From positions 1 through 42,521 of IMG/VR virus record IMGVR_UViG_3300025426_000596: a stretch of DNA of 42,521 nt; one strand, given 5' to 3'. Under the pieces are notes generated by a model that was not told where the DNA came from, did not search any database, and saw only the letters and a program-made list of their open reading frames with translations. The stretch comes from a virus. Position 1 is the stretch's first letter. The number at the start of each line of letters is the position of its first letter. Positions 1,867 to 40,793 of this stretch are shown one piece after another. The position numbers and the translations under genes were made by a program.

Positions 1867-2997
1867 TTAAACCTCCAACTGAACTAATGTTAGTGTAACA
1901 GTTATTATGGCACTGCTCGAACCGTTGTTGTATATTTTTAAAGGAATAGTAGTTGTTGGTGTAGACTCTGCACTAAATCCAACTGCCGCCGGCGTATAAG
2001 TTTGTGTAGTTCCAGATGTTGTTATAATTTCTGCAACAACTCCACTACTAGATGTAGGATCTGTAGTAATGCTTCGACTAGCATCTGCCGCCATAGATGC
2101 TAGACTATTATAGATTACAACCCAGGCCGCTGATGAAGTTTGCACACTGTACAATGCATAGCCTTTAAACCCAGTAACTGTGTAAGTTCCACTAGTGCCA
2201 GCTGGCAATGTTATTGATGAAACACTTATAGATTTTCTACTAGATAATCCGCTAGATGCTCCTCCGGATGAACTAATTATACCATTGTTAATTGTAATAC
2301 TTGTACCGTCTACTTTAACACCACCTAATGTGTTAGTAGTTGCTATTGGAAGACTGTATTGTAATGCGCTAATTACACTGTTGTTAATTGTAATACTTGT
2401 ACCGTCTACTTTAACACCACCTAATGCACTAGTTGTAGCTGTAGGCAATGTATAACTGTTAACTGCACTAATTACTCCACTACCATTAACTGTAATAGTT
2501 GTACCATCTACTTTAACACCGCCTAGTGTAAATATGCTTGCAGTTGGTAATGTATACGCAGTACTGTTAACTGTGATAGTTGCAACACTTCCAGATACGC
2601 TGGCTGACGATACTCCAGTACCTGTAAAATTTAAAGTAGTGACTGCACTTGCAGACCCTTGAGTAGTTCCTGCATTTTGTACAGTTACTCCCGATATACC
2701 TGCTTGTTGTTGTGTGCCTGTAACAGTACTAGTTAATAAACCAGTTCCGCTATTATAGCTAAATGTTATACCAGTTGAAGTTCCGCTTGTAAGTAAATTA
2801 GCGGCAATGGCTTTTATATTGCTAGAACTTGCACTTAGTACATTACTAGTATTAATAATACTAGTTCCATCTGCACTGAGCAAACTGCCGGCTGAACTAG
2901 CTTGAACACCCCAAGCTGATCCATTATAGATCCATGTAGTACCGCCATATGAGTACGTTTGATTTAATGATGGACTTAATGGAAAACTAAAACTCAT
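1867..2997 (-). CDS. Tail fibre-like protein with LGGVKVDG repeats
   Basis: A 376-residue fibre-like protein. The N-terminus has a small aromatic motif (YSYGGTTWIYNGSAWG, about residues 15-30) common in phage fibres. The middle, about 145-240, holds three 30-32-residue repeats of the type LPTATTSALGGVKVDGTSIT. The C-terminal 120 residues look like a globular beta domain with KGYALYSVQTSSAAWVVIY and an end in VTLTLVQLEV, a tip type I recognise from cyanophage-like fibres. The internal block AGISGVTVQNAG...AVTTLNFTG also occurs in the protein encoded at 3532-4545. AGGAAT precedes the ATG. It lies in a three-gene fibre cluster upstream of the S53 protease. Probable role: part of the tail-fibre or adhesion apparatus. 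Confidence 0.8.
   Translation of the reverse strand: MSFSFPLSPSLNQTYSYGGTTWIYNGSAWGVQASSAGSLLSADGTSIINTSNVLSASSSNIKAIAANLLTSGTSTGITFSYNSGTGLLTSTVTGTQQQAGISGVTVQNAGTTQGSASAVTTLNFTGTGVSSASVSGSVATITVNSTAYTLPTASIFTLGGVKVDGTTITVNGSGVISAVNSYTLPTATTSALGGVKVDGTSITINNSVISALQYSLPIATTNTLGGVKVDGTSITINNGIISSSGGASSGLSSRKSISVSSITLPAGTSGTYTVTGFKGYALYSVQTSSAAWVVIYNSLASMAADASRSITTDPTSSSGVVAEIITTSGTTQTYTPAAVGFSAESTPTTTIPLKIYNNGSSSAIITVTLTLVQLEV
2285..2426. repeat. Two identical 46-bp direct repeats within a fibre gene
   Basis: Bases 2285-2330 and 2381-2426 are identical over 46 bases and 96 bases apart, exactly 32 codons. They encode the LGGVKVDGTSITINN repeat. A diverged third copy follows near 2480-2530, and related copies lie in the two neighbouring fibre genes near 3160-3205, 3265-3315 and 3990-4035. 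Confidence 0.9.
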
Positions 2998-3012
2998 AAA
3001 ATATTCCTATGA

Positions 3013-3516
3013 TTACCAGGCAGCCGCGCTAGCTCTAATCCAACTGTTAGTTGCAATGCATATGTATATGTGCGTACTGTCATATGCAATTTGTCCTTGT
3101 ACTCCGGTGCTAGTTGCAGTAGCTGGTGCAGAAATTGCATTAGCACTAATAACACCATTATTAATTGTAATTGTTGAACCGTCTACTTTAACTCCGCCTA
3201 AAACACCTAATGAGCTAATGCCTGCGGTTGGTAATGTGTATGTATTGTTAGCTGTGATAACACCGCTACCATTGATAGTAATACTCGTTCCGTCAATTTT
3301 AACACCGCCGAGGATGCTAGTAGTAGCTGTAGGCAATGTATAACTGTTACCTGTTGGATTACTAGCATAATTTAAACTGTTCCATGCACTACTACCGTTA
3401 CCGTATTTTACTTTTAATGTATCTGTTTCAAGACCAGGTTCACCAGCGGCTAATGTAGGGTTTACACTGGCCCAGTTTGCGGCTGTGTCTCTTCTTAATT
3501 TAATTTGTACTGACAT
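3013..3516 (-). CDS. Short tail-fibre protein with Mtd_N-like N-terminal domain
   Basis: A 167-residue protein. Residues 1-50 (KLRRDTAANWASVNPTLAAG, then EPGLETDTLKVKYGNG) match the N-terminal domain first described in the major tropism determinant of Bordetella phage (Mtd_N type), which is frequent in phage fibres. Two LGGVK(I/V)DG repeats follow at about 60-125. The end (GQIAYDSTHIYICIATNSWI) is a common fibre C-terminal motif. AGGAG sits before the ATG. No C-type-lectin variable domain is present, so this is a small structural or linking fibre subunit, not a full tropism determinant. It is co-directional with the fibre genes on both sides. Confidence 0.82.
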   Translation of the reverse strand: MSVQIKLRRDTAANWASVNPTLAAGEPGLETDTLKVKYGNGSSAWNSLNYASNPTGNSYTLPTATTSILGGVKIDGTSITINGSGVITANNTYTLPTAGISSLGVLGGVKVDGSTITINNGVISANAISAPATATSTGVQGQIAYDSTHIYICIATNSWIRASAAAW

Positions 3517-3531
3517 GTTATCTCCTAATTT

Positions 3532-4545
3532 TTATCCAGCGGCTGCTCCGCCATCGATGCTACTTATAGATATTGAATCTACAGGTTGCACCCACTGGCT
3601 TCCGGTATATATGAATAGTTGACCAGTAGTAGTGTTAAGCCATAAATTTCCACTACCGGGTGTAGAAGGAGCAGTATCACTTAATGTTGCTCCACTTCCA
3701 CCTGATCCACTTCCACCTGAAATAGCTATAGTTGCAACACTACCAGCTACAGTAGTAGTCACTCCTGACCCTGTAAAATTTAAAGTAGTAACTGCGGCTG
3801 TTGCGCCGTTAGTTATACCTGAATTTTGTACAGTTACTCCTGTAATTCCAGCACCGCCAGCACCGCCACTTACGGTACTAGTCATAAGACCTGTACCAGC
3901 ATTATATGTAAATGTTATTCCAGTTTGTGTTCCACCAGTAAGCATAGCCGCTGCCGCTGCCTGTATTGAACTGGTCACTGTACTAATTTTACCAGTTACA
4001 TCAACTGTAATTGTTGTCCCGTCTACAATAACTCCACCGAGTGTTGTAGTTGTTGCAGGGATTAGAACAGACCCGCCACTACCTGCACCTGCACCTGCAC
4101 CTCCACTACTTGAAGGACTTGAAGTTATTTGTGTGGGAATTTGTAGTGGAAAAATAGTTTCAGCATATGTTACTGCAAAACTAACTTTAGCTCCAGCAAA
4201 CCCAGCGTTTGGAGTTGCATATAAAATCAAATAGCTGTCATTAACTGTGGCAGATAAAGTAACAATTTGATTGGTAAGAGTAGTTCTACCAAAAATTGTA
4301 AATGCGGCTCCTTCGGGGCGAGCAGTAACTAACACATGCATACTTTCTTTGTTATTACTGTCTGCTTCTGCATGTAAAAAATACGTGGCACTAGCAAAAT
4401 TTCCCACGTACCAACGATCAATTTCAATAGCAGTTGCTACTGAGGGAAGTAGTGTTCTATTTCCCTTATAAGAGAAGTTAGTTCCAGGTAATAACGACAA
4501 CGAATGTTGCGGTCCCCGAGAAAAATAAGTAGTTAGATTTAACAT
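3532..4545 (-). CDS. Fibre-like protein, beta-sandwich head plus repeat stalk
   Basis: A 337-residue protein. Residues 1-130 form a likely beta-sandwich (LHAEADSNNKESMHVLVTAR, then VNDSYLILYATPNAGFAGAK). A Gly/Ala/Ser linker (about 143-158) leads to a fibre part with one LGGVIVDGTTITVD repeat and the ITGVTVQNSG...TTLNFTGSGV block shared with the 1867-2997 protein. The end holds TPGSGNLWLNTTTGQLFIYT and SQWVQPVD, a motif common near phage-fibre C-termini. The ATG lacks a clear Shine-Dalgarno sequence. It is the first gene of the minus-strand cluster left of the divergent junction. Function is inferred as virion structural. Confidence 0.75.
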   Translation of the reverse strand: MLNLTTYFSRGPQHSLSLLPGTNFSYKGNRTLLPSVATAIEIDRWYVGNFASATYFLHAEADSNNKESMHVLVTARPEGAAFTIFGRTTLTNQIVTLSATVNDSYLILYATPNAGFAGAKVSFAVTYAETIFPLQIPTQITSSPSSSGGAGAGAGSGGSVLIPATTTTLGGVIVDGTTITVDVTGKISTVTSSIQAAAAAMLTGGTQTGITFTYNAGTGLMTSTVSGGAGGAGITGVTVQNSGITNGATAAVTTLNFTGSGVTTTVAGSVATIAISGGSGSGGSGATLSDTAPSTPGSGNLWLNTTTGQLFIYTGSQWVQPVDSISISSIDGGAAAG

Positions 4546-4583
4546 AGTTTAACCAGAATGTACATGCTTTTAGCCATTTTATA

Positions 4584-4591
4584 TATTTAGC
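4584..4591 (-). promoter_or_regulatory. Possible late promoter for the 4545 gene
   Basis: The minus strand reads GCTAAATATATAAAAT in the 115-base divergent gap, about 40 bases before the ATG at 4545. It resembles the T4-like late element but lacks the C after TAAATA that the six better sites share. Confidence 0.35.
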
Positions 4592-4604
4592 TATTTCAAA
4601 ACTC

Positions 4605-4633
4605 TTGCTCTTGAACGCAAAATATGCTAAATT
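4605..4633 (+). promoter_or_regulatory. Weak sigma70-like promoter candidate for the plus-strand cassette
   Basis: TTGCTC (4605-4610), 17 bases, then TAAATT (4628-4633) is the best sigma70-type pair I can see before the cassette. The match is weak. A TTGAAC at 4611 is an alternative -35. No TAAATAC late element exists on the plus strand here, which suggests expression at a different phase. Confidence 0.25.
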
Positions 4634-4660
4634 ACTGTATATTTCACTATAGGACTAACT

Positions 4661-5659
4661 ATGACTCAAAGAGCAAAGGCCTTTTTTATTAATGGGGGCG
4701 CAGGCAGAACACTCTGTTCAATCCCAGCACTTGAAAAATACGCTGAAGAAAACGGCAATGATTTTATCATTGTTTGCGAAGGCGGAACTGACTTTTATAA
4801 AGGACATCCGCTACTACACCCTAGAGCCTACGATCATTGGCATAAAAACTTATTCGAAGAAAAGCTAGTTAATATGGAGTTAGTAACTCCAGAGCCATAT
4901 CGTGTTTGGGAATACTATAATCAAAAATGCTCAATTGCACAGGCATTTGACATTGCTATTAACAACAAAGGTATTCGAGAATTACAAAAACCTAATGTTA
5001 GACTATCAAATGAAGAACTATTTTTAGGGCATAGTCTTGTTAAAGAAGTTCGCGAAAAGACTAAAAAGGAAAAAATTATTGTTTTCCAACCTTTTGGTCG
5101 AGGAACTCATTCCGAAGGTGGTGTTATATATGACACTTCTGGTAGAAGTTTTGAAGGCGAGCATGTAATCAATATTGTTAAAAAATTACAAAAACGTTAC
5201 GGCATCATTATGATGAGCGAAATTGGTATCGACTTCCAGAAACACGGTTGTAAAGATCCAGTAGCTCATCCACAAAATGTCAGCCTACGCCAATGGTGTT
5301 CAGTTATCGGTAATGCTGACTATTTCTTAGGATGCGATAGTGTAGGACAACATTTAGCCTATACACTTGATCGACCAGCTACAGTTGTACTAGGTTCTAC
5401 ATTTGATATTAACGTAAGTTATCCTAATTACAGCAAATTTGATATTCTTGATATGGGCGGTGATGTTCGTAGATATAGTCCAATTAGAATTACTATGGAC
5501 GAAGTTGCTGACCGAGGCAATGACGGAATTATGCGAATGAACGATAAGGTCGAAGAAGCTATTGTACAATCAGTTGAGAATGGCATTAAAACTTGGAGTC
5601 GTGAATCAATTAAAGGTCCAGTTGAAGTTAAGCAAATTGTAAGCAAAAAAGAAGCATGA
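4661..5659 (+). CDS. GT9-like (heptosyltransferase-type) glycosyltransferase
   Basis: A 332-residue protein with a glycosyltransferase family 9 (ADP-heptose:LPS heptosyltransferase) look. The N-terminal half starts with FFINGGAGRTLCSIPALEKY (residues 8-27), in the place where family members have a Gly-rich acceptor-side loop. The C-terminal half has IIVFQPFGRG (about 143-152) and the nucleotide-sugar-side signature LGCDSVGQHLAYTLDRPATV (about 222-241) followed by VLGST. GT9 enzymes are cytoplasmic and add heptose or related sugars to the LPS core; the sugar used here cannot be read. AGGA precedes the ATG by 8 bases. The stop overlaps the next start (ATGA at 5656-5659), so the two are translationally coupled. 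It heads a cassette with two SGNH-like proteins and a carbamoyltransferase. Confidence 0.75.
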   Translation: MTQRAKAFFINGGAGRTLCSIPALEKYAEENGNDFIIVCEGGTDFYKGHPLLHPRAYDHWHKNLFEEKLVNMELVTPEPYRVWEYYNQKCSIAQAFDIAINNKGIRELQKPNVRLSNEELFLGHSLVKEVREKTKKEKIIVFQPFGRGTHSEGGVIYDTSGRSFEGEHVINIVKKLQKRYGIIMMSEIGIDFQKHGCKDPVAHPQNVSLRQWCSVIGNADYFLGCDSVGQHLAYTLDRPATVVLGSTFDINVSYPNYSKFDILDMGGDVRRYSPIRITMDEVADRGNDGIMRMNDKVEEAIVQSVENGIKTWSRESIKGPVEVKQIVSKKEA

Positions 5660-6552
5660 GTAGACTGTTCACTTTTGGGTGTAGTTACACCCATTATGCC
5701 TGGCCTAGCTGGGCAGATTTCTTAGGACTTGAATTTACCCAACATGAAAACTGGGGATATCTTGGATTAGGAAATCGTGCTATTGCAGAGCGTGTTGCTG
5801 AGTGTAATGTTAAAAATAAATTTACACCAGATGACGTAGTAATTGTACAATGGTCTAGTCACCTGCGGAATGATTATCATACTGAACGTAGACGTATAAA
5901 TTATCATCAGTCTGGTCCATTTGTAGGACAAGGCGGATGGAAAACTGGCGGCAGTATGTTTAACTACATTAATAATACAGTGTATGATACACAATGGATT
6001 AATCAGTTTTTCGATGAAAAGTCATATTTTCTACACACACTTAATAATATTTCGTTGACTCAAGGATTACTAAAATCAACTGGCGTTAAATGGTATATGA
6101 CTAGCATGGCTGATTTAGATGCGTTAGGCACAGATATTGGTGTCTTGCATGGCGAGAATATTAACAAAGCTTCTACTGGATACAGCGTATGGCAAGATTC
6201 AAAATATGAATCATTATGGGATTATAAAACTGCTATCTGGGATAACAACTCCGATAATTGGTTACCTAGCCTAGGACCGTATGTATGGAAAAACTTTCCA
6301 GACTTACAGTGGAGTTTCAAAGATCCAAACAGTCCACGATTAGTGTTTCCTGAATTGCATCCTAGTCCAAGACAACATGCGGCTTATGTTGCAGATGTTA
6401 TTAGACCTAAGTTAAATCTTACAAGTGATACGTCTGACCTTTATTCACCATGGTTCGATCTAACAGATAAAGCTAAAGAGTTAGCACCAGATCTTAAAAC
6501 ATGCGATAGCATGTTAGCACAGTACTGGAATTTACCATATATGGGAATTTAA
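5656..6552 (+). CDS. SGNH/GDSL hydrolase-like protein, copy 1
   Basis: A 298-residue protein with the block layout of SGNH hydrolases. Block I is FTFGCSYT with Ser10 as nucleophile; a Gly/Asn loop is at GLGNRA (Asn40); block III-like SSHLRND spans 67-73; block V is ELHPS with Glu233/His235. The usual Asp of the DxxH pair is replaced by Glu here. SGNH enzymes act as esterases, often deacetylating or acetylating polysaccharides. Family membership is a motif-level call without an alignment. Its start overlaps the glycosyltransferase stop, and one base separates it from its paralog downstream. Likely role: adding or removing an acyl group on the glycan handled by the cassette. Confidence 0.7.
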   Translation: MSRLFTFGCSYTHYAWPSWADFLGLEFTQHENWGYLGLGNRAIAERVAECNVKNKFTPDDVVIVQWSSHLRNDYHTERRRINYHQSGPFVGQGGWKTGGSMFNYINNTVYDTQWINQFFDEKSYFLHTLNNISLTQGLLKSTGVKWYMTSMADLDALGTDIGVLHGENINKASTGYSVWQDSKYESLWDYKTAIWDNNSDNWLPSLGPYVWKNFPDLQWSFKDPNSPRLVFPELHPSPRQHAAYVADVIRPKLNLTSDTSDLYSPWFDLTDKAKELAPDLKTCDSMLAQYWNLPYMGI

Positions 6553-6553
6553 C

Positions 6554-7477
6554 ATGTCAAGACTTTTTACATTCGGTTGCAGTTATACTAGCTACAGTTG
6601 GCCTACGTGGGCAGATCTTGCTGGTATGAATTATAAGTTACATAAAAATTGGGGCATGAGTGGATTAGGTAATCGTGCTATTGCAGAACGTGTTGCAGAA
6701 GCACATGCCAAATACAAGTTTGGTCCAGAAGATACAGTTATTGTACAATGGTCTAGTCACTTGCGTAACGATTGGTGGCATCAAAAACCAACAGTTAGCA
6801 AATTTCCTGGATGGCAAACTTGTGGCAGTATTTTTAACTACATTAATGAAAAAATATATAGCCTAGAGTGGATTAAAACATTCTTTTTTGAACCTGCGTG
6901 GATTATGCATACACTTAATCATGTGTTGCTAACACAAGGTTTATTAAAATCAACTGGATGCACTTGGTATATGACCAGTATCGGTGACATTAGAAACATA
7001 GGTGCTGATATTAGGGCCAACGACGGTATTGGCGAAGATAGCGGTTTCCTGAAACCAGGTGACAAGGACATTAAAAATGTGTTGTGGGTTAAAATTCCAG
7101 AAATGCGTGTGTATGAAAATGCCATATGGACTGATAATGCAGACCATTGGTTAGAACCGTTAGAGATATTTGCGCAAAAACATGCTGAACTAACTTTTCA
7201 ATTTGATGATACTCGAAAAAAAGATGCTGTATTTTATGATACGCATCCTAGTACAAGACAACATGCCTTATGGCTTGACAACCAGTTGAAAGAGAAGTTA
7301 CAATTAAGTGATGCAACTATGAAAACTTCTTGGGAAATTGCTGATAGTGTAGATGCATTACAAAAGAAGTTTAGATTTAATAAGAATTTATTCGAACTTA
7401 ACTTATCGAAGAAAATGGGATTTCCGGACTCGGCACACCATAAACTTAGATGGCCGTTTCCTCTAGAAGGTTTTTAA
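6554..7477 (+). CDS. SGNH/GDSL hydrolase-like protein, copy 2
   Basis: A 307-residue paralog of the preceding gene. The two share FTFGCSYT at the N-terminus, GLGNRAIAERVAE, VIVQWSSHLRND, LLTQGLLKSTG..WYMTS in the middle, and HPS.RQHA near the end. This copy keeps the standard Asp229-x-His231 in DTHPS. Middle regions differ in loop length (the stretch after LRND is shorter here) and the C-terminal tail is longer, ending in LRWPFPLEGF. The pattern points to tandem duplication followed by divergence, perhaps to act on two positions or two substrates. The start follows the upstream stop by one base (TAAcATG). Confidence 0.7.
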   Translation: MSRLFTFGCSYTSYSWPTWADLAGMNYKLHKNWGMSGLGNRAIAERVAEAHAKYKFGPEDTVIVQWSSHLRNDWWHQKPTVSKFPGWQTCGSIFNYINEKIYSLEWIKTFFFEPAWIMHTLNHVLLTQGLLKSTGCTWYMTSIGDIRNIGADIRANDGIGEDSGFLKPGDKDIKNVLWVKIPEMRVYENAIWTDNADHWLEPLEIFAQKHAELTFQFDDTRKKDAVFYDTHPSTRQHALWLDNQLKEKLQLSDATMKTSWEIADSVDALQKKFRFNKNLFELNLSKKMGFPDSAHHKLRWPFPLEGF

Positions 7478-9316: not shown

Positions 9317-10249
9317 TTAAGCACCGTATGTGCCGTCTGGACTTTTTATAGGTTGCCACTTCCAAGGTTTAGTAGTTGGTTCACCGTGAAACTTAATTGC
9401 CTTGTTTGTATCTTCAACTTGACGAATAATTGGAGTACTTAATGTAACTTGTTTTGTAACAGCGTCAACACTTACTACTGAAGTAATTGCACCTGGGTCA
9501 AATAACCCATTTTGCAATGTCCAATCTGTATTACTTACCCACATATCAGCTATAATACCAGTGACATCAGTTAATTGAATAACAAATTGATGTGGTGTGT
9601 TAACAGGAGCTGTTGCTGTAACATCAGCATCATGCTCTACATTAACTGCACCGTGTACTTGTGGCATATCGCGTAGTTTTTGACGGAATTCTTCCCAAGA
9701 AGCTTTATGACTGTCAGGAGTATCATCTGCTACTAATGCATCAGTTGTAGTTAATGAGTTGTTACGCCATTTTCTAAGATCGTGCCATGTAACATGTGGC
9801 TCTCTAAATGCAGGTAGTACCCACGTACTAGTTGTAGGATTCCAAGTTAATTCAGTGTGATCGTGAGTATGATCTGGAGGGGTATCTTTCACACGAGTAT
9901 ATACACTGCCGTCTGGTAATGTTTCTGAAAGTTGCTCAAGCTCGTCATATGGTGTACGATGTAAAATATCAGCACCGATAATTTGACAGATAATAGGATT
10001 TGTTTCGCAGTCAACCATTACTTTAGTTTTGTGCAATGGTTCTGGAACATCAGCGCCGTCTTCTGCTTCGGTAAGCCACGGACCTGCATACTTATTTGTT
10101 TCTTTGTCTACAAATACCCAAATTTTGTTTGGGCCTTTATACGTATGAGTTGCTGTTTTATTTAAAGTACGCTCTGTACTTAGATAGTCATCTGGCACAT
10201 CATACGTAAATGTTTTTTCAATAATTGTATTTGTTGTTAAATCTGCCAT
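9317..10249 (-). CDS. Tail assembly chaperone-like (APC-type) protein with beta extension
   Basis: A 310-residue paralog of the 11803-12498 product. Both begin with (T)FTYD(V/I)xDxYL, then TYKGP..(I/L)W(V/I)F(V/I)DK. Both carry a segment like the phage tail-assembly-chaperone motif (Phage_tail_APC type): here WHDLRKWRNNSLTTTDAL at about 150-168, then EEFRQKLRDMP at about 186-196. Unlike its paralog it has an extra 110-residue beta-rich C-terminal domain (from about 200; VIQLTDVTGIIADMWVSNTD). It is the last gene before the terminator and directly follows a Cys/Gly-rich gene, whose final codons supply a weak GGAT ribosome-binding site. I infer a cognate assembly factor or fibre-tip partner for the Cys/Gly-rich proteins. 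Confidence 0.65.
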   Translation of the reverse strand: MADLTTNTIIEKTFTYDVPDDYLSTERTLNKTATHTYKGPNKIWVFVDKETNKYAGPWLTEAEDGADVPEPLHKTKVMVDCETNPIICQIIGADILHRTPYDELEQLSETLPDGSVYTRVKDTPPDHTHDHTELTWNPTTSTWVLPAFREPHVTWHDLRKWRNNSLTTTDALVADDTPDSHKASWEEFRQKLRDMPQVHGAVNVEHDADVTATAPVNTPHQFVIQLTDVTGIIADMWVSNTDWTLQNGLFDPGAITSVVSVDAVTKQVTLSTPIIRQVEDTNKAIKFHGEPTTKPWKWQPIKSPDGTYGA

Positions 10250-10253
10250 TTTT

Positions 10254-11015
10254 TTATCCGTATGTAATTGAAACTAAACCGCCGCCGCCCATGCCGCCAC
10301 ACCAACAGCTACCGCCGTAGGCTTGCGCACTTAGGCCACCACCGCCTGGGAATGGAGTATAACCAAACCAACCAGAGCAACCTAAGTTACCTTGTTGACT
10401 TCCGTTAATACAGCCACCTGGGCCATAGAATGGACCTGATTGTGCTGCCGGAGCAGTTTGAGCGTGTTGTTGTCCGTACTGTGCGCACCATGTACTACCA
10501 GTATACCCACTTTGAATACCGTGGATATTTACGTCGCCACCGTATGCGCAACAGCAATATGGCATTTCTGTTGAACATGTATAGCATGAGAAATACAACC
10601 AGCAAGTAGCGTTTCCATAACTACCACCGTTAGCACAGAAGTTACTTAAGCCATAACCTGTAACATAACTAGTATTGCCACCGCAGCCAATACAGTTAAC
10701 TGATTGATACGTTGTACCTGCGGCACATACTGTGTATGAGCATCCTGCAAGGGCTGAACTATACACAGTTTTTACAGAATAACTTGCGCCACCACCTGGC
10801 CATGATTGCATACAGCAACATGCTCCAGAGCCACCACCGCCTCCACCCCACATTTCAAATGTGACAAAAGATGCGCCAGCTGGCACTACGAAGTTACAGC
10901 ATTGTCCGCCGTTTGCTCCTGAGTTATAACTAGTATTGTATACTAGTAATTCTGTAGGATAGTTTGTACCAGCTGAATAATTTAGCGTGTACATTAATGA
11001 TCTTAAATCTGACAT
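10254..11015 (-). CDS. Cys/Gly-rich putative adhesin, copy C
   Basis: A 253-residue protein with 21 Cys by my count. The common layout of the three paralogs is visible: a short N-terminus, then GGQCCNFVVPAGASFVTFEM (about 36-55), a glycine run, GACCC (about 64-68), a variable Cys-rich middle (VNCIGCGG, YCCCAY), a glycine-rich part and the end SCWCGGMGGGGLVSITYG. The VPAG...F..WG(G)n pattern is that of phage glycine-rich domains. Poly-glycine sheets form the receptor-binding tip of some T4-like gp38 adhesins, so receptor binding is a reasonable inference. The Cys could form disulfides after lysis or bind metal. This copy has the most divergent middle. No membrane segment or signal is seen. Confidence 0.7.
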   Translation of the reverse strand: MSDLRSLMYTLNYSAGTNYPTELLVYNTSYNSGANGGQCCNFVVPAGASFVTFEMWGGGGGGSGACCCMQSWPGGGASYSVKTVYSSALAGCSYTVCAAGTTYQSVNCIGCGGNTSYVTGYGLSNFCANGGSYGNATCWLYFSCYTCSTEMPYCCCAYGGDVNIHGIQSGYTGSTWCAQYGQQHAQTAPAAQSGPFYGPGGCINGSQQGNLGCSGWFGYTPFPGGGGLSAQAYGGSCWCGGMGGGGLVSITYG

Positions 11016-11028
11016 AGTTATTTGCGCC

Positions 11029-11784
11029 TTATCTGTAAGTTACTTGGACTAGGCCGCCTGAGCCCCAACCGCCCCAACAACACCCGCCATAACTGATTGC
11101 AGTTCCACCGCCACCACCTGGCCAAGCATTAAAGTTGCCGCTCATTGCACATCCCATCCATGATTCACCACATTCTGTGAATGATGTACGTGTACCTGCA
11201 CCAATATATGTTGGAGATCCCATCATGTGCCATGAGTCATATCCGCACCAACCTTCGTGTGATGCACCAGTAACTCCGCAAATTGCTAAGTCATATCCGC
11301 ATGCGCATCCGCATACGTTAGTTGCACAGTGGTAGTTACCACCAATTGCCGCCCAGCAACAACTTTGACCACCGTATCCGCCACTTGAACACAAGTTTAG
11401 TGAATAGGTAACTGTACCTGCACCTTGTGCAAAACTTGGGAAACCAGCAGTACCGTGAGCATCTTGGGCACAACATCCTGACCCACCTGCACAGATTAAG
11501 TAGCATTGTCCTGGAACTACACGAATAGTCTTACGTGAGTAAGTACCTGAACCTCCACCTTGTGAAGGTTGTTGACAGCAACATGCGCCACCTCCATCAC
11601 CGCCTGCTCCCCAGACTTCAAATTTAGCCCAGGCTACCCCAGCTGGAACAACCCATAAACAGCATTTTCCACCGTCCTGAACTGCGGCACCAGTGTTACC
11701 GTTGTATACATACAAGTTACCGTAGGTTTGTGGGATATTAAATATATATCTACTGTCTGGAAAAAACTGTGTTAAGCTACTCAT
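11029..11784 (-). CDS. Cys/Gly-rich putative adhesin, copy B
   Basis: A 251-residue protein with 22 Cys by my count. Shared elements: GGKCCLWVVPAGVAWAKFEV, WGAGGDGGGACCC, GGSGCCAQ and the end GGCCWGGWGSGGLVQVTY. The middle has its own motifs (VCGCACG, ECGESWMGC), so the ends are conserved and the centre varies between copies, as expected for adhesins under diversifying selection. The gene lies between an APC-like gene (upstream in transcription) and copy C. GGAGA precedes the ATG. Assignment as a receptor-binding tip is inference from the glycine-rich fold and the position at the end of the fibre block. Confidence 0.7.
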   Translation of the reverse strand: MSSLTQFFPDSRYIFNIPQTYGNLYVYNGNTGAAVQDGGKCCLWVVPAGVAWAKFEVWGAGGDGGGACCCQQPSQGGGSGTYSRKTIRVVPGQCYLICAGGSGCCAQDAHGTAGFPSFAQGAGTVTYSLNLCSSGGYGGQSCCWAAIGGNYHCATNVCGCACGYDLAICGVTGASHEGWCGYDSWHMMGSPTYIGAGTRTSFTECGESWMGCAMSGNFNAWPGGGGGTAISYGGCCWGGWGSGGLVQVTYR

Positions 11785-11802
11785 ATTATAATATTCTCCA
11801 GA

Positions 11803-12498
11803 TTATACTTTAGGACCAAGATCGCCTGGAGTAGTTGGCATTACCACAGCAACTGGATCTGTCGGGAATGGAACTTTCCATGGGTCAATACCTGCAAATG
11901 TCTTTGGAAGATCACGTAACTTTTGACGGTACTCTGATAATTTTTGTTTAATAACTGGATCAATTGCTTGATGATAAGGTTGATCTGTATTCTTTAGAAT
12001 TGCATCACGTGCGGCTGTTAATGTATCCCAATCCATATGTGGCTTTTTCCATGGATATGGAGTAACAAAGTCTTGTTTGTCAGCATCCCATACAATTTCA
12101 ATTAGTTCATATGTGTGGTCTGGTGGAATAGGATCTGGGTGACCGTATGTTGCACCATCAGGTAATTGTTCTAAAGTATGAGGCAATTCACCATATGTGT
12201 ATTCATTGTGTATTAGACTAGCAATACATGGCCACTTCTTAGCATCCAGCTCTACTTTGATCATATCTTCTGGACATGGTACTAGGTGACCATCGTCACG
12301 TAGTGTATAGTGGAAACGACTAGAAATTTTCATAGTAGCTTTGTCAATAAAGATCCATAGATGCTCTGGACCTTTATAAGTCCATTGCGCAGTTTTCTTT
12401 AGTGTATTTGTTTGATAGAGATATTGATCAGCGATGTCATAGGTAAATGTTACCTCAACTCGGGGATTCTCAAAATTCTCTTTTTCTTGTTGATCCAT
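11803..12498 (-). CDS. Tail assembly chaperone-like (APC-type) protein, short copy
   Basis: A 231-residue paralog of the 9317-10249 product, without its C-terminal beta extension. TFTYDIADQYLYQTNTLKKT (17-36) and YKGPEHLWIFIDK (41-53) define the shared N-terminal domain. LPDGATYG and PPDHTYEL (112-132) match LPDGSVY and PPDHTHDH in the paralog. Residues 154-198 (HMDWDTLTAARDAILKNTDQ, then SEYRQKLRDLP) fit the tail-assembly-chaperone motif seen in many phage tail proteins. AAGGAT precedes the ATG. Its place between two Cys/Gly-rich genes suggests it serves them. No enzymatic motif is seen. Confidence 0.68.
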   Translation of the reverse strand: MDQQEKENFENPRVEVTFTYDIADQYLYQTNTLKKTAQWTYKGPEHLWIFIDKATMKISSRFHYTLRDDGHLVPCPEDMIKVELDAKKWPCIASLIHNEYTYGELPHTLEQLPDGATYGHPDPIPPDHTYELIEIVWDADKQDFVTPYPWKKPHMDWDTLTAARDAILKNTDQPYHQAIDPVIKQKLSEYRQKLRDLPKTFAGIDPWKVPFPTDPVAVVMPTTPGDLGPKV

Positions 12499-12511
12499 TT
12501 TTATATCCTTT

Positions 12512-13267
12512 TTATCCGTATGTTACCATGGCTAAGCCGCCTGCACCCCAACCACCCCAACAGCATCCGCCGCCGCAAGCAGTTGCGCTATTACCTGCGC
12601 CGCCTGGCCATTTTGCGCCGCACATCATATTGCGGCCTGAAATTGTTAAACTAACTAAGCAGTAATCCATACCTTGACGAATGTAATTACCGTATTTTGA
12701 AACTCCATGTGACCATTCCCATTGGTTACTCCAGCAGTAATTACTTACTTTGTTTGGGCTTGATACTGAAGGCATTGTAAGATCGTAGTTTAATGAGTAG
12801 CAACCATATGAGCAACTAGGTATACAAATACCAGTACAGCCCATGTATGTTCTAAAACACAATACACATCCCATGTATCCGCCGCATGAATATGCTACGT
12901 TTGTGTTGTTTGCGCAAAGTGCGAAACTTGATAATCCACATGTACCACAACACTGCTGTGCGCAACAGCCTGAGCCACCGCCGCATAGGATAAAGTAAGT
13001 GCCAGATGTTACTGGTAGATATTTTTTACTGTAGTTGCCGCCTCCAGGTCCCCAATACGGACCCATACAACAACATGCACCTGCACCGTCTCCGCCGCCG
13101 CTCCATGTTTCAAATACTGCCCAAGTAACGCCAGTTGGCACTACCCAGCAACAGCATGCACCGCCATTTGAAACAGAGTCAATGTTAGTGTTATACACAC
13201 TAATCACCTGCTGTTTGTAGGCTGTATTAGGCGCACTTGAAGGAAGCAAGTCTCTTAAATTTGACAT
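12512..13267 (-). CDS. Cys/Gly-rich putative adhesin, copy A
   Basis: A 251-residue protein with 26 Cys by my count, about one residue in ten, the richest of the three copies. GGACCCWVVPTGVTWAVFET (about 35-54) and GACCCMGPYWGPGGG give two Cys triplets near the N-terminus. GGGSGCCAQQCCGTCG and a run of single Cys (MGCVLC, MGCTGIC, IPSCSYGC) fill the middle. The end GGGCCWGGWGAGGLAMVTYG matches copy B almost fully. AGAGAAG serves as ribosome-binding site. It is first in a five-gene run of adhesin-like and chaperone-like genes. Function is inferred as above; zinc or iron binding is an alternative reading of the Cys content. Confidence 0.7.
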   Translation of the reverse strand: MSNLRDLLPSSAPNTAYKQQVISVYNTNIDSVSNGGACCCWVVPTGVTWAVFETWSGGGDGAGACCCMGPYWGPGGGNYSKKYLPVTSGTYFILCGGGSGCCAQQCCGTCGLSSFALCANNTNVAYSCGGYMGCVLCFRTYMGCTGICIPSCSYGCYSLNYDLTMPSVSSPNKVSNYCWSNQWEWSHGVSKYGNYIRQGMDYCLVSLTISGRNMMCGAKWPGGAGNSATACGGGCCWGGWGAGGLAMVTYG

Positions 13268-13279
13268 ATTGCTTCTCTT

Positions 13280-13603
13280 TTATTTAATGATGATCCAACC
13301 AGCCGCTGTACTATAAACCAATGTTACTGTAACATAAGCTACGTTAACTGTTAAATCTTGGCCTAAACTTTGGATAGTTGAACCGTTTCTACCAATCGTG
13401 CAGTTTGAAGAGGCAAAATTTCCACCTACATCAATAACCTGTACAGTGTCGCCGTCTAAGCTAGTTGTATAAGAAGGTAGTGTAATTGTTTGTCCACCAG
13501 CTGTGCATAGAATTCTGTCGTTAACTAATGCTTGGTAGTTGGTACCAGCATTAATCCTAACTACAGATCCAGCTGTTCCAGTTGTTGTGATATATCGTCC
13601 CAT
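13280..13603 (-). CDS. Small fibre-tip-like beta protein
   Basis: A 107-residue protein of a type often fused to or found near phage fibres: NDRILCTAGGQTITLPSY (about 29-46), then DGDTVQVIDVGGNF and NCTIGRNGSTIQSLGQDLTV, ending in a Tyr/Trp strand (VYSTAAGWIIIK). It appears all-beta and self-contained. AAGGAA precedes the ATG, and a near-perfect late promoter lies 20-30 bases upstream, inside the end of the preceding gene. That promoter could drive this gene and the whole Cys/Gly-rich run below it. Confidence 0.75.
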   Translation of the reverse strand: MGRYITTTGTAGSVVRINAGTNYQALVNDRILCTAGGQTITLPSYTTSLDGDTVQVIDVGGNFASSNCTIGRNGSTIQSLGQDLTVNVAYVTVTLVYSTAAGWIIIK

Positions 13604-13623: not shown

Positions 13624-13633
13624 GTATTTATAC
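13624..13633 (-). promoter_or_regulatory. T4-type late promoter
   Basis: The minus strand reads GTATAAATAC, an exact TATAAATA core. It overlaps the stop codon of the 13628-13948 gene and lies about 21 bases before the ATG at 13603. Confidence 0.75.
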
Positions 13634-13948
13634 CGTTGAAGTCTCAATGCCGAATGCCATTGCGCCAACGTTTGCGGTGGTTGAGTATGCTAATAGGTTT
13701 AAACCAGCATTTAACACCAATCCTGTTAATTGCAAGACCCCGTGTGCTAAAACTTCACACTGGTATTCAAGATATTCACCGGCTGCTGGCGTAGTGGAAG
13801 TGGATAATGCCACAGACACTGAAACTGCCGAATTGCTCCTATTAACAATGTTTAAAGTAGCTACTGTAAACGTGTTTGTTGGAACTGTGTATACTACGGT
13901 CCAGGTAACCGCTGAAAGGTCTGCGTATCCTAATCTTCCTGTTGCCAT
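13628..13948 (-). CDS. Small beta-sandwich virion protein (MATGRLG type)
   Basis: A 106-residue protein starting MATGRLGYADLSAVTWTVVY, a start I recognise from many marine phage structural clusters. The strand pattern VYTVP...T.A.LNIVNRS...V.VALS, followed by LEYQCEVLAHGVLQLTGLVL, indicates a small beta-sandwich. It is a fold-level paralog of the products at 32452-32781 and 36596-36904. GGAG lies before the ATG. Function is unknown beyond probable virion decoration or connection; it directly follows the 4040-residue giant. Confidence 0.7.
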   Translation of the reverse strand: MATGRLGYADLSAVTWTVVYTVPTNTFTVATLNIVNRSNSAVSVSVALSTSTTPAAGEYLEYQCEVLAHGVLQLTGLVLNAGLNLLAYSTTANVGAMAFGIETSTV

Positions 13949-13968: not shown

Positions 13969-16900
13969 TTATTGTAATAAAAAGTTCATTGCTAGCGGTA
14001 TCCCGTTGATACCTGCATTTGCTCCGGTGAAATTCATAGTTGCAGGTACTAAAATTTGAACTTGTGTTGAAGTTGAAATTGAGTTTCCTGCGATATAAAT
14101 TACACCTGCTGTAAGTGTATTTACGTTCAAAGCACTAGAACCACCACCAATTTGGCTACTAATGTATGATTTAATAGCTTTTTGTGTTGGCACAATGTTG
14201 TCACTATTGGCTGTAAAGTACGGGTCTGTTGAGAACTGAGTAATAGTTGCATTACTAGAACCTAACGATATAGAACCCAGGGTCAATGAGTTCAATCCTG
14301 CCAAGTTAAACGCATCAGCGTTAATACTTGCTACACCAGTTGCCTGTTGAACACTGAATAATGTACCAACTTGGAAGTTACCGTCCTGGTCAGTACTTGT
14401 ATAGAACACTCGACCGCCGCCATTTCCTACAGTTTGTAGGGTTGGTTGTGGTGCTTGTAACGGTGTACCTGGGTAGTTCGTTGTAGTTTGATTACCAGTA
14501 CCGATACTTAAGAAGTCATGTCCTGTTAAACGTACTTGGCTATATTTCAATTTCAGCGTCATTGCTGATCCATGCACCGGTGCATTAGCAGAAATAAATG
14601 CTGGACTAATTTGGAAAATCGCAGTATACGGTGCAAGTCCGGGACCAGTTCCTAATAAGTTAGTAACTTGTACTAATTTATAGTAACTTCCGTTACCTGC
14701 AATTTGAATATTTGCGCCAGCTGTAGGTGTAGTATATAATCCTGATACGTTAATATAAGATGTAGTCTGATATTCATCAGCATAACCATTACCTGTAACT
14801 GTAGCAGTACCAGTTGCATACTGCAATCCTCTGTTAGTCCACATCGGATTTGCCAGTGCGCCTATACCAATTCGAGGATTTTGTGTAGCACTACTAGTTT
14901 GGTTAGGATCAACTATAGTAATTGATGGTAAATTTAGATATCCGCTACCTGGCTCTATCATACGATATTCACTAATTGCACCTGCACTTACTTTACAACG
15001 TAGTGTTGCAGTAGCACCAGTAACAACTGTATTGAATATTGCAGTATTCAATGAGCATGCAACCCACAACGGTGTTGAACTTGGATTGCCAAATGCAATT
15101 GCAGGCCATGAAGCTACTGACGTTAAGTTTTGTGCAACCCAATTAATACCGTCATTTGACGTAGATATCTGTGTTGCGGCACCTGCTGTCGAAGTCCAAG
15201 ATCCTGCACCACTTGTCAATGTATACGATGCTCCAGTTAATGTCTGGCTAACTTGTAGCTGACTAGTTCCAGAGAATACCTGTTGGATATAATATGTGCT
15301 AGTTGATACTAACCCGCCAAATATTGTACCACATGCTGTAGACCAAGAATCACCAGTGCTTGAAGTTAATGGAATCGGAGCACCGCCAAAACTTGAACCA
15401 ACTGTAACATATCCAGAACCAACTGTTAAGATATAGTATGGAATACCTGTTACTAGACCAGTGCTAACAACGTTAATATTCATAGTACCTGAACCGCCAG
15501 CCCATGTTGTATAAGCTGTTCCAGTTCCAGCGCCGCCTGAGTATGTAGCTACTGTTACACTATTAGTGCTTGCAGAGTTTACATAGTAAATTGTGTTAGC
15601 AGTTGGTCCGCCAAACACTGTACCAGTACCGTTAGTGAAGTAAATCATAGAACCAACACTAATACCTAGAGCTGATACAGTTTGTGTTGTAGTAATTACA
15701 CCAGTTCCTGCGGCAACTGTGGTTACTTGACCGACTGTTGCTACAGGACCACCTAAACTTACACCAGCACTTGCGGCCCATGAACCACCACCTAGTACCC
15801 ATGTTACTGCTGAACCGTTATAGCTGGTAGCTACAGTAATTACGTTAGTACCTGTATTGTTAGATAATACATAATAAGTTTGGGTAGCGGAAACAATACC
15901 GCCTAAAACTCCGCCAGCAACAGAAGTCCATGCTCCTGCAGCCGCAGTAGTTAAGTTTAGAGTTGAGCCGCCAACAGTAGCAGAAATTTGGATAGTGCTA
16001 CTACCGCTATTAACTTGAGTTATGTAATAAGTTACACCAGCTGTAACAGAACTAAATGTTTGTCCAGTTGTTACAGTCCAGTTACCTACACCGTTAATTA
16101 AACTTACTGGGTTTGTACCAAAGTTAGAACCTAATGTAACTGTACTTGAAGTTGGGATTGTTAAGATATAGTATGTGCTTCCGCTAGTTAATCCGCCTAA
16201 TGCCGCACCAGCTGTAATTGTAACTGTACCAGTTGCATTGGTTAATACAAAAGGTGCACCACCTGGAGTAGAACTGATTGTAATATATGTACTGTTAATT
16301 GTTAAAATATAGTAAGTTGCACTGTTAGCTAAGTTACCAAATGCGCCAGATGATCCTGTAGCAAATGATTCACCGACAACCATATTACTATTGCTAGCTA
16401 CAGTTACAACATAACTTGTACCAGTAATAGTTGTTGTACTAACGTTTGTTGTTTGTACAGAACTTACAGCCCATTGACTACCAGCACTAGTACCGTTACC
16501 GCTGATGTTAGCAACAATGTATGCTCCAGCTGTTACACCAGATCCACTTAGTGCCATACCAATTGTAACAATACCGCTTGATACAGTACCAACTGTTAAA
16601 ATACCACTAGTGATACTGCTGTTAAGCATTGTAGCACTTGTTGTAGTTGTTTGAGTAGCTGTTGTAGAAGCTGTAACTGCTACAGCGTTAAATGTTTCGC
16701 CAACAACCATGCCAGTTGTAGAACCAACTGTTACTGAACTTAATGTTCCTGTAATTGTAGTACTAGTTTGTGGTGTAGTTGTACTAGTTTGCCATGTTGA
16801 TCCACTACCACTACCTAATAAGTTAGCAGTAATGTACACGTTTGACCCAATGCTACCACCAGTTAACACCATACCAACTGATATAGTGCCTGCTGTTAGT

Positions 16901-19900
16901 GTGCCAACTGTTAGTACACCAGTTCCACCAATCGTGCTACCTGTCATAGTAGCAGTAGCTGATGTTGTAGCTGTTGCTGATGTACCTTGTGTAACTGCTG
17001 TAAAGACAATAGATTGATTTACAACTAAATTACTTGTGCTACTTACTGTTAATAAGTTAGTTCCAGTTGCGGCAGCTAGCAATACAGGGTTAAATGTTGC
17101 GGCTGTAAACACAATTGGTTCACCAACAGCAATACCGGTTGAGTTTGCTAGTGTAATGTTTGCACTAGAAGCCGCAGTTGATACTACCGAAGTAGACTGT
17201 GTACTTGATGTAGACACAAAACTTTCACCTGGTACTAATCCAGCAGTACTAGAAACTGTAATTGAACTTAATGTACCAGTAATTGTTGTACTAGACTGTG
17301 CAGTAGTTGTGTTAGTCTGCCATGTTGACCCGTTACCGGTACCACTAATGTTAGCAGTAATATATACTCCGGCTGCAATACTACCGCCAGTTAACACCAT
17401 ACCAACATATATTGTACCAGTTGATAGTGTACCAACTGTTAAAATACCTGTAGTTACAGCAATGCTTGAGCTAGTCATTGTAGCTGTAGCGTTTGTTGTA
17501 GCTGTAGCTGTAGGAGTTTGTGTAACTGCTGTGGGAATGAATGTTTCACCTGCAACAATACCAGTAGTTGAACTTACTGTAATTAAATTGTTTACACCTG
17601 TAAATGATGCTGGAGATCCAGTTGTACCAACGTTGTTAGCAATGCTCACGTTGTAAGTACCAGTACCACCTGATCCAGTACCTGTTGAAACAATGTAAGT
17701 TCCATTTTGTGTACCACCACCGCTTAGGTTCATACCAACTGCAATTGTACCAACTACTGAACCAGTTACTGTTAATACTGTACCAGTTGTTCCGCTTATA
17801 CCTGTTACAGCACTAATATAACCTGCAAATGTTGCACTAGTACTAGATGTTGCTGTAATAGTTTGGTTTTGTGAAGCTGGTGCTGCCAAGAATAGACCTT
17901 GACCATAACGAACTTTGCTCCATGGTAGGCTAACAGCCATACCTGCACCTGAACTCTTCCATGTAATACCATCAATACTGTAAGCAGTAGCAGTTGTTGA
18001 AGCCGCAATTGCTACAAATATGTTTTTACCAAATGATACACTAGTCCAGTTTTGTGAACTTGGAAGTGTTCTAGCAGTCCATGTTGTACCATCTGCACTC
18101 GAAGCGGCTACTGTTGAACCAGAAACACCGCCTGCAATAGCTACCCAAATTGTACCACCATATGCTACACCGTTCCAAGTAGAACTAGATGGCAATGCGT
18201 TAGTATTTGTCCAGTTTTGACCGTTGGTACTATAGGCTGCGTTTGCACTGCCTGATGCAACTGCCATAAATCTACCATTACCGTAAGCAATAGCACTCCA
18301 GTTTGCAGTAGCAGGCATTGCACTACTTGCAGTCCATGTTAATGGAGTCGTTGCGTAGTTTGAAAGTGTTCCGCCTTTAGCAATAGCAACCCATGTGCCT
18401 CCGCCATAAGCAATAGCTGTCCATGTTGTGCTAGATGATAATGTACCACCTGCAGTCCATGTTGTACCGTTAGCACTGTACTGTGTTGCATTACCGTTAG
18501 AAGTAATTGCAACATAGTACCCACCTGATCCTACCCCAGTATATGTAAAGTTAGTAATAGCACCAGTAGTAGTGTTTATATTTGTAACGATAATAGTAAT
18601 ATCGTTAGTTGTACTTACACCGCCCAAACTTGTGCCAGGAAGTGTTATAGTATTACCAATAGTATATAATGTACCACCAGTAGCAATAGTTACAGCATAT
18701 GCAACTCCTGTACGAACAACAGTAAATGTTGCTCCAGTACCACTACTTAATGTACCAGTACCTAATCCAATTGTACCAGATACAGAGTTATATGTAACGT
18801 TAGTATCACCGTATGCAACATCAGCCCAACCAGCGGCATTAACCACTTGAGTTCCAAGGCTTGGAGTAAATCCAGGAGCACTAGCTGTTACTCTTGGCTC
18901 AATGATGTATGTAGTTGTTAAGTCTAAGTTTGTAGCGTTAACTGTACCAGGAACAACATGGTCCCACCCAGCGGCATTAACTAGCATAGTACCACTACCT
19001 GCTGTTAGTACTACAGGTGTTGAACTTCCGCTACTTGCTGCCACTGAGAATGTTGTACCGCCGCTAGATAAACTTGCACCAATCACCCAGTAGACTGTAG
19101 TAAGTGGAGTAATGTTATTGCCACCAAAGGTACTTGACCCACTAAAATATATTGGCATGTTCGCATACAATGTATTTGTATTAGAAGATGTAGTAAATGT
19201 TGATGTAGAGCATAAAGTTAATGTTATAGGAACAAAACTTTCTTTAGCAACGTTTGCTAATTTAGTACCTGAATTGTAATTAACAATATAACCAGTTTGT
19301 CCGTTACCGGTACCACCAGTTAAGTTAATTCGCATACCAACGTAGGCTGCACTAATAGCACTGTCTGTTGCGGCTAAGTTGATCTGGTATAGTGTACCAG
19401 CCTGAGCTACGTTTGACTGTGTAACATAGTTTGCGCCGCCTGTTAATGGGCGAACTTCAAACACTGCATTATCACGGAATTCATTAGCAACAACTGCGGC
19501 ATTATAACCAGTACCGCCAATCGACCATGTGGCTGAGTTATAACCTGATCCAGCATTGAAGAATTCAAATCGGTAGATTGCATTTGTACTATCTGTAAAC
19601 ACGTTAGTAACTGTTGCTTGACTAGACCGGTTATTGATAGCGGCTGTCACCGGAACTTCATAAGTATCACCGCCTTCAGCTAATGTACCATACGTACCAT
19701 ATGAACTGTTACCGTTTGTGGCACGCATACGTCCACCTAGCTCTGCTAGGTAACCAGCATAACTGTAGTAACAGAACACAGAAACTAGCTCAGTTAATGA
19801 ACTTGAACCTGTACACCATACACCAATACCGTCACTTAGAATAGTTGTATAGTCGTTAGCAACAATAGAACGGTTACCACCGGCATGTAGTGATCCGTCA

Positions 19901-22900
19901 ATTTTCATACCTACGCAACCATAACCAAACATTGTACAGTTTTGTGTGTATGGGCTACGAGCATAAATCCATACATTGCTATCGTTTGGTCCAAAACCTG
20001 TATCTAACGAACTGTAAGCACCTGCTGTTGGACGTTTTGTACCGAACGCATTTGCAGGACCTAGTGTTCCAGTCAATCCAGTCATAGTCATATTTCGTAG
20101 ACCTGTACCGTTACGTAACAAGAACATGTTTTGTGTTACTGATCCACCGACTGCATTATTATACAGTTGTGCGGCACGTAATGATTTATAATTACCAGTA
20201 AAGTTTAAATCATAGATAATTGCATTTAAGTATGATGTTGTATCTCTAACGCACTTAGCTAAGTTATAAGAATAACTAACTGTTAAACTACCAAGTGTTG
20301 CGGTTGTTATTTGTACTGGAGTTAGGCTAAATTGTGTTGCAGTAATAGCAAACGATGTAGCGGTTAATCCAGCGGCTAATACATAGTATTGAGTTCCTGC
20401 AACGATGTTACTAATTCCAACAGTACCTGTAAATGTAACAGGATCGCCTGCAACAAAATTATGATTGCCAGTAGTTGTGATAAGATTTCCAGTACTATTT
20501 GTACCAGATACTGTTCCACCATAGCTTGCAGTAATATAAGCGGCTGACTCATAAGCTAAGAAATTAATATTAGCTCTAATAATTTCTGCACCATTAATTG
20601 TACTTAACGTATTGTTGTATGTTAAAGTACCGTGTGTTTGTACGTTAGCACCAATAGTAACTGATACGTTTGTAGAAGCCGCAGTTGTTAATGTAAATGT
20701 GCTTGCACTTGCGTAGGTAGCTGTGATTGTAATCTGATTAGTTGAATTATTAACAGTTAATACCCAGTATGTTTGATTTTGCTGAGTACCACCTTGACTT
20801 CCAGATGTAAACACTACTGGCATTCCAACGTAAACACCAACTGTTGTAGCAAGTGTAATTACATTACCTGAAGAATTAAATGCAGTTGCAGTAGTAGTTA
20901 CTTGTCCGTTAATAGTAGCAATAATATCATCTATCATCACACTTGCTTGTGCGGCTGAACCGCTGGCTGCAATTAATTTTGCCTTGTAGCCAATAAATCC
21001 AATTGCTCCAATTTCTGCTTGTGTTTGATTTAATAATACTGTTTGCGCACTAGTAATTGCACGATAATAAGACTTACCGACAATAATACTGTTAAAGTTA
21101 GTTCCTAACACTAGGTCATAACATAGTGCATCAACAATATAACCAGCATCTCTATAACAAGTTGCAGTATTGAAGTTCAATGATTGGAAATACTTTTGTA
21201 CCCAAACTGTTGTATCACTTTGAATTTCTGTTTTCTTAGCAACCAATGCGTTAAACGCTGTTTGTAAACTAGCACTGCTTAGTCCCACGGTACCTGCATC
21301 GCTTGGAGTAAATGAACTTTGCATCCCGATAGCACTGCTAGCCACTGTCTGGCTAACACTTACAGTCCATGTAGATCCATTACCGCTACCGCTAATGTTG
21401 GCAGTGATATAAGTTCCAGGTGCAACACCTGTACCAGTTACTAGTTGTCCTACAGCAATTGTTCCACTTACTAGTGTACCAATAGTTAATGTAGTACTAG
21501 AAGGTCCAATTGAACTTCCTGTAGTAGTTACAACTGTAGTTGTTTGCGCATTGTTAGTAATCCAGTCAATAATGTTTTGAATTCTAGCTTGAGCATATAT
21601 TGCGGCATTTGCCGATCCAGCAGTACCTGTTTGTACTTGTGTTGGATATGCTCCAGTAATTGCTATCGGTGAACCAATAGAGCCAACTGTTTGGCTAATA
21701 CTAATAGTCCAGTTAGAACTAACTGAGTTATATGCAGTAACAATTGTGTTAGATGCAATACCTGCGCCAGTAATCACTTGCCCGACTTGAATTGTTCCAG
21801 AAACTGTTGAGCTTACATACAAGGCTGTACCAATAGTATAACCAGTAATACTTGCATTAGTTGCTGTTTGTGCAGTTACTAATGTTGCTGTTGCTACTTG
21901 ACCAATGATTGATTTTAATTGAGTGTATGCGGCAATAGTTGCAACTTTTTCTGTTGCGGCTTCAGTTAACACACCATATGAATAATAAGCACTACCAGCA
22001 ATGTTAGTCTGCATGTTAGTACCATAAGTCATATCGTACTGTAACGCATCTAAGATGTAACCAACGTCACGTTGGCAGTTTGCCACGTTAATTGCGTTAT
22101 AAACACTTAGATAGTTATTGTAAATGTATTGGCTAATTTGTGCTTTAATAAAATTGTAGTTTTGTACAATCTGTGCTTTAGCATCACCGTAACCAACTAA
22201 GAAACTAGTATTATAGTTTGTTGGATTAGTAAATGTATAAGTTGGCGCAACTGCTAAACCGTTAGTAAAGATGTTAGATATTAACGCTGTACTATTAATC
22301 ACAGTATTTGCGGCAGCAGTGCTACCAGTATCACCAGCTGGAAGGCTAGTTACTTGGCTTGCAGTGTTACCGCTTGTTGGAGTAATTGATGTATTTGTAA
22401 CTAGATTACTTAACAATGCTTTTGTACGTGTTAATGCCAACACTGATTTAGGTTTATCATTAACTAAATTAGCTACTGCACCAGCTGGCTGAATTACTGT
22501 ACCACGAAGTTCATCGCCTACAATAGCAGTATTAGATGGAACTACAATTGGAAGTATTTCACTGTAATTACCAGTTTTAACCATAATGCTTGTTTGTGGT
22601 AATTGAGCGGCTGCAACTGTTACTCCAGGGAAGAATGTAAAAGTTAAACCAGTAGTTGTTCCAGCGGCAGTTACAGTACCTGCAACTGCTGGACTAGATG
22701 TAGCATTAGCATAACTATTTGTTACTTGAATAGATGATACATTAGTACCACCTGTCATAATATAATATATGGTATTACTACTAATAGTACCAGTACCAGT
22801 ATTGGTACCTGTTACTAAAATACTAGCGCCAACAGTGTATGTACCGGCTGGAACTGTCAATTGTCCAGAAGTGCCTGCAATCACAACTCCTGTTAGTACA

Positions 22901-40781: not shown

Positions 40782-40793
40782 TTAAATTTCTCC

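Follow-up and report, generated by a model that had tools for sequence, protein, structure and literature searches.

Glycine-Rich Tips of Known Tail Fibres

The closest described system is the fibre of Pam3, in which gp24 is encoded next to the Tfa-type chaperone gp25 (PDB 7ypx and 7yfw). The gp24 protein combines a TNF-like domain with glycine-rich loops and has a long N-terminal helical shaft. A shaft of the gp24 type reportedly docks to the baseplate, the protein being a homotrimer at the fibre end. Structural work on Pam3 demonstrated that gp24 requires gp25 and proposed its distal loops as the receptor site; the text of that paper mentions neither cysteine nor disulfides (PMC9608196). According to the literature, gp38 of the S16 type (PDB 6F45) forms a receptor-binding tip of polyglycine layers at the end of a T4-like fibre, with a beta-helix as its middle domain. 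Syn9 gp38 (L229, 4344-5144), a glycine-rich relative from a cyanophage, contains 2 cysteines in 266 residues.

We analysed a stretch of viral DNA of 42,521 nucleotides (IMG/VR record IMGVR_UViG_3300025426_000596), hereafter the window. It is T4-like, with genes for a gp21-type prohead protease, a scaffold-like protein and a gp23-type major head protein at 39606-42495. Three of its proteins, p1, p2 and p3, are glycine-rich and exceptionally rich in cysteine. As in Pam3, a TNF-like domain with glycine-rich loops is predicted and a putative Tfa-type chaperone gene adjoins. In contrast to Pam3, the model of p3 lacks the helical shaft (its single helix spans residues 5-8), there are two or three genes in place of one, and the chaperone model does not match gp25 in a structure search. 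As with S16 gp38, the genes follow a large fibre; however, the predicted core is TNF-like rather than beta-helical, and S16 gp38 is absent from the 50 structure matches listed for p3. Syn9 gp38 is a structural neighbour in the viral library with a similar loop layout, but its gene neighbourhood is different and its cysteine content low; it is an example of a protein of related fold with few cysteines.

Part of this picture is already known: the family has been catalogued, the fold has been described for Pam3, and the genes stand in published genomes as hypothetical proteins. Our literature search found no paper on Cys-rich cyanophage adhesins, and nothing on the cysteine content, the fixed copy number or the link to the fold.

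A Cassette of Three Cysteine-Rich Genes

The genes at the fibre end of the window are as follows.

9317-10249, minus strand: Tfa-like tail-fibre assembly chaperone (putative), after p3; 310 aa, Cys-poor; PF16778, PHROG 9740
10254-11015, minus strand: p3, Cys-rich Gly-rich protein; 253 aa, 21 Cys; open reading frame, PHROG 4205, AlphaFold2, Foldseek
11029-11784, minus strand: p2, Cys-rich Gly-rich protein; 251 aa, 22 Cys; open reading frame, PHROG 4205
11803-12498, minus strand: Tfa-like tail-fibre assembly chaperone (putative), between p1 and p2; 231 aa, Cys-poor; PHROG 9740, PHROG 4912
12512-13267, minus strand: p1, Cys-rich Gly-rich protein; 251 aa, 26 Cys; open reading frame, PHROG 4205
13280-13603, minus strand: 107-aa companion protein directly upstream of p1; weak tail-fibre/spike similarity
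13628-13948, minus strand: 106-aa companion protein; weak tail-fibre similarity
13969-26091, minus strand: large tail fibre (putative), upstream neighbour of the cassette; 4040 aa; from position and likeness by eye

The first-pass annotation had counted 26, 22 and 21 cysteines in three proteins of about 250 residues, and these counts are exact. It had treated 9317-13267 as three proteins. Three Cys-rich proteins are indeed encoded there, but the interval holds five genes, of which two are Cys-poor and of the Tfa type. Cysteine makes up 10.4% of p1, 8.8% of p2 and 8.3% of p3. Base composition can be dismissed as the cause, since cysteine does not exceed 1.9% in any of the remaining real genes of the window.

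The three proteins share 33-42% pairwise identity (23-36% when cysteine and glycine are left out). Twelve cysteine columns are common to all three, whereas 5000 shuffled placements gave 0.17 on average and never more than 3; this count is to be read with the fact that the aligner by itself rewards Cys-Cys matches. The proposal of triplicated paralogs with cysteines at matching places is thus borne out, and p1, p2 and p3 are true paralogs.

The gene at 9317-10249 matches PF16778 in its C-terminal part, above the cut-off (E 2.8e-08), as well as PHROG 9740. Its counterpart at 11803-12498 scores 24.4 bits with PF16778, slightly below the 26.6-bit cut-off, and matches PHROG 9740 and PHROG 4912 'tail fiber assembly'. 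Among 59 Tfa-like homologues, 42 are matched by PF16778 at E ≤0.01. The linkage is constant: the gene after p3 is Tfa-like in all 135 loci where it is readable, and the gene between p1 and p2, where present, is Tfa-like in 32 of 32 loci. These neighbours contain about 0.8% cysteine. The model of the 11803-12498 product is confident (pLDDT 94), yet it has no match in the PDB at E ≤0.001, Pam3 gp25 included; the putative chaperone role therefore rests on profile and position.

Both companion proteins have counterparts at the same place in two other loci (L010 and L011) and in P-SSM2. The 4040-aa fibre is the positional counterpart of the 'tail fiber protein' of S-SSM7 and P-SSM2, and its N- and C-terminal parts resemble, by eye, the product of 2575-7008 in locus L004. 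This putative fibre is a single Thr/Ser/Gly-rich chain; the S-SSM7 counterpart is much shorter (1477 aa). The element TATAAATA at 13625-13632 was considered as a late promoter before the cassette and rejected, being present in only 3 of 39 loci with no enrichment in the window.

Family and Distribution

Profile searches place all three proteins in PHROG 4205, with matches over most of their length (E 8.5e-38 for p3, 4.7e-27 for p2 and 3.7e-19 for p1). This is a widespread family with no function assigned, which occurs in cyanophages and environmental contigs. The Pfam family Gly_rich_2 (PF21722) gives p3 18.2 bits, below its cut-off of 24.3 bits; the same Pfam profile search gave no match for p1 or p2. 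Among 18 family members, 10 match PF21722 at E ≤0.1, the best having E 5.4e-10.

Relatives were collected by a DNA pattern for WGxGGxGxGACCC together with a profile scan of IMG/VR, which revealed at least about 200 further loci. The 527 complete members among the matches listed contain 7.0-12.3% cysteine (median 10.2%), where the pattern, by requiring cysteines in one loop, makes the sample lean to Cys-rich genes, while the other copies of each locus were not chosen by cysteine pattern. The isolated Synechococcus phages S-SSM7, Sf-FS3, S-CAM1 and S-CAM3 possess the same three tandem genes with 8-12% cysteine. In these four isolates a large tail-fibre gene stands before the cassette and a Tfa-like gene after it, and a gene for a carbamoyltransferase lies beyond. 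Genes of the family are found in hundreds of related viruses, mostly annotated as 'hypothetical'.

Cellular homologues were also considered. Across 84,980 genomes the DNA pattern gave one match, in a contig of an archaeal MAG (L237, binned with Euryarchaeota), and the candidate was dropped: that contig has the same phage cassette, comprising the end of a fibre gene, a pair of small companions, the three Cys-rich genes and the start of a Tfa gene. It is probably a misplaced phage contig.

The evidence speaks for a cyanobacterial host in the case of the S-SSM7 and S-CAM types. A search of the large contigs closest to the window (G003, 223 kb, the source of L006, and G004, 165 kb, the source of L017) did not reveal psbA, in contrast to one S-SSM7-type and one S-CAM-type contig, where it is present. 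Given this result in the large contigs of its clade, a cyanobacterium is no more than a candidate host for the phage of the window. The idea that a phage glutaredoxin constantly accompanies the cassette was rejected, since none was detected in the two large contigs closest to the window.

Copy Number and Lineages

Among the matches listed, 154 loci are intact, and every one of them has exactly three copies, all oriented alike. The remaining 54 loci are cut near the end of the locus and never exceed three copies. Whole-length searches of ten contigs (104-231 kb) gave no extra copies (a fourth row in one of them is another fragment of a reading frame already counted), and the four isolates searched in the same manner have three copies each. 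Three copies are nevertheless the rule in most lineages and not in all: P-SSM2 and three relatives have two copies, which are longer (351-362 aa) and contain 30-38 cysteines. In P-SSM2 (L228, 10261-13127) the two copies have 36 cysteines each, with a Cys-free chaperone-like gene between them.

In a FastTree tree, whose deep branches are provisional, p1, p2 and p3 form separate lineages inside each of three phage clades. Only 9 changes of position are needed on this tree, compared with 76 when the labels are shuffled (53 sets, near-copies removed). Between clades, copies group by clade rather than by position, which points to separate triplications or to homogenisation.

Predicted Fold

The AlphaFold2 model of p3, built from 139 sequences, has pLDDT 83 and pTM 0.83, with low confidence in loop parts around residues 141-150 and 201-220. 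Its best PDB match in Foldseek is the Pam3 fibre 7ypx (E 6.4e-06, probability 1.00, TM about 0.5). The rmsd of 6.8 over 252 columns suggests that domains or loops are placed differently in the two proteins. Next in the ranking come the Bxb1 tail tip 9d93 and, more weakly, TNF-like/glycine-rich domains of ALK/LTK. In the viral structure library the matches are glycine-rich phage proteins, including those of S-CAM3 and P-SSM2 and Syn9 gp38. A sequence search of solved structures with p2, the family profile and Syn9 gp38 as queries found nothing relevant. The p3 fold is thus predicted to be a TNF-like sandwich bearing glycine-rich loops. The earlier suggestion of an adhesin with a polyglycine tip gains from the Pam3 fold match, from the partial Gly_rich_2 matches and from the constant linkage to a Tfa-like gene and a large fibre.

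Conservation and Pairing of Cysteines

In disjoint pairs of close relatives, only 3.0% of cysteine sites differ, as compared to 6.2% for tryptophan, 7.9% for glycine and 31-34% for alanine and serine. Cysteine is the least-changing residue of all, which shows that the thiols matter. The idea that the exceptional cysteine content is under selection therefore holds, and it extends to the whole family, all 527 members having at least 7.0% cysteine. When the proteins are grouped by clade and position, eight cysteine columns recur in eight or more of the nine groups, and one of these columns, C177 of p3, is present in all nine with no exception. By our own division of the sequence, 16 of the 21 cysteines of p3 fall in loop segments. 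The ACCC motif would stand at the distal tip of the first loop, judging from the arrangement GGGGGGSG-ACCC...PGGG.

Proteins with an odd number of cysteines are as frequent as those with an even number, and the sum over p1, p2 and p3 shows no bias to even numbers; the conserved core, however, consists of eight cysteines and is thus even. Comparison of relatives with 85% identity or more shows a difference of one cysteine in 32 pairs and of two or three in only 7. Where a cysteine is variable, its substitute is usually Asn, Gly or Tyr and rarely His. The lack of an even bias and the single losses imply that not every cysteine is in an obligatory within-chain disulfide. Parity and single- versus paired-loss comparisons thus do not favour full within-chain pairing, and many cysteines, at least the variable ones, appear to lie outside such bonds. 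These tests may leave room for a bonded core with spare cysteines, for bonds between chains or for metal. A pairing map derived from co-gain and co-loss on the tree with account of phylogeny was abandoned, the opposed column pairs being as many as the matching ones.

How the Cysteines May Act

We regard it as quite probable that p1, p2 and p3 are adhesins, that is, receptor-binding subunits of a T4-like phage. Presence in the virion, location at the tip and binding of a receptor are what we infer from the evidence above, the tip location by analogy with the known fibres. In each protein a bundle of glycine-rich loops would be mounted on a TNF-like beta-sandwich, like that of Pam3 gp24, and the protein would probably cap a tail fibre or form its distal end, aided by the adjoining Tfa-type chaperone or chaperones. 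The best reading overall, to which we give about an even chance, is that the chaperone folds the tips first and that core disulfides form after release. The cysteines would be kept reduced while the loops are folded in the cell. Once lysis has brought the proteins into oxygenated water, about eight conserved core cysteines would cross-link the otherwise floppy glycine loops. The outcome would be a stiff tip with loop sequences that are free to vary.

A metal-bound tip is the strongest of the alternatives, though we consider it rather unlikely. The adhesin role would be unchanged, while the cysteine clusters of adjoining loops (CCC, CC, CxC) would hold zinc, iron or another soft metal, and a metal centre instead of disulfides would organise the loops. 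Adjacent cysteines such as ACCC, CC and CxC are awkward for ordinary within-chain disulfides and common in metal clusters; the eight core cysteines could make two four-Cys sites, and redundant thiols would more easily tolerate single losses and odd counts. In the T4 gp37 tip, iron is bound via pairs of histidines. The loops of Syn9 gp38, a Cys-poor relative, have many histidines where the family has cysteines, which could point to metal at such tips. On the other hand, p1, p2 and p3 contain only 1, 4 and 2 histidines, respectively, variable cysteines seldom turn into histidine, and neither a known metal-site motif nor a solved precedent is available for a TNF-like/glycine-loop fold.

It is clearly unlikely that p1, p2 and p3 form one heterotrimer on a three-fold fibre, with disulfides or metal between the chains. 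The constancy of three copies, seen in the 154 intact loci, the large contigs and the four isolates, agrees with this arrangement, and the separate lineages in each of the three clades mean that none of the copies seems dispensable; the odd/even pattern also permits bonds between chains. However, P-SSM2 and its relatives manage with two copies, the summed cysteines are without even bias, and three separate homotrimeric fibres account for the number three equally well. It would be a bolder step, and one we also deem improbable, to see here a new class of receptor-binding tip, in which three obligate, separately evolving paralogs share one mixed tip and their loops are locked between chains by disulfides or metal only after exit from the reducing cell. 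The tail would then mature in response to oxygen.

Free cysteines at the loop tips might instead take part directly in attachment, by reaction or exchange with a partner on the surface of the host, which seems very unlikely. The loop segments that contain the cysteines correspond to the proposed receptor face of Pam3, and unpaired cysteines fit the odd numbers and single losses, but free thiols would oxidise in surface water, and a receptor face is usually the most variable part of a protein whereas cysteine is the most conserved residue here. Finally, a place outside the virion, for instance as non-structural assembly factors with an intracellular role for the cysteines, is highly improbable: T4 gp38 is such an assembly factor, absent from the particle (PMC9608196), and our literature search found no virion proteomics for p1, p2 or p3, but the fold match of p3 is the fibre gp24 and not a chaperone, and a separate Tfa-like gene already adjoins.

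If the proteins are receptor-binding tips, the host-recognition genes of S-SSM7, P-SSM2 and other cultured phages would be identified. About 10% cysteine in a virion protein, conserved more strongly than tryptophan or glycine, would be an unusual use by a phage of extracellular oxidation or of metal at the tail tip, and isolates in which to test it are already available.

Other Genes in the Window

At 252-1865 on the minus strand, near the tail genes, the window encodes a protein of 537 aa in which a pro-kumamolisin activation domain is combined with a serine protease domain of the subtilase type (S8). In P-SSM2, a protein of PF00082 is encoded upstream of the genes for the tail spike and the fibre. 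Two adjacent plus-strand genes, 5656-6552 and 6554-7477, have no Pfam match and lie beside a carbamoyltransferase gene. Their counterparts in L006 both start with MSRLFTFGCSYT and look like paralogs.
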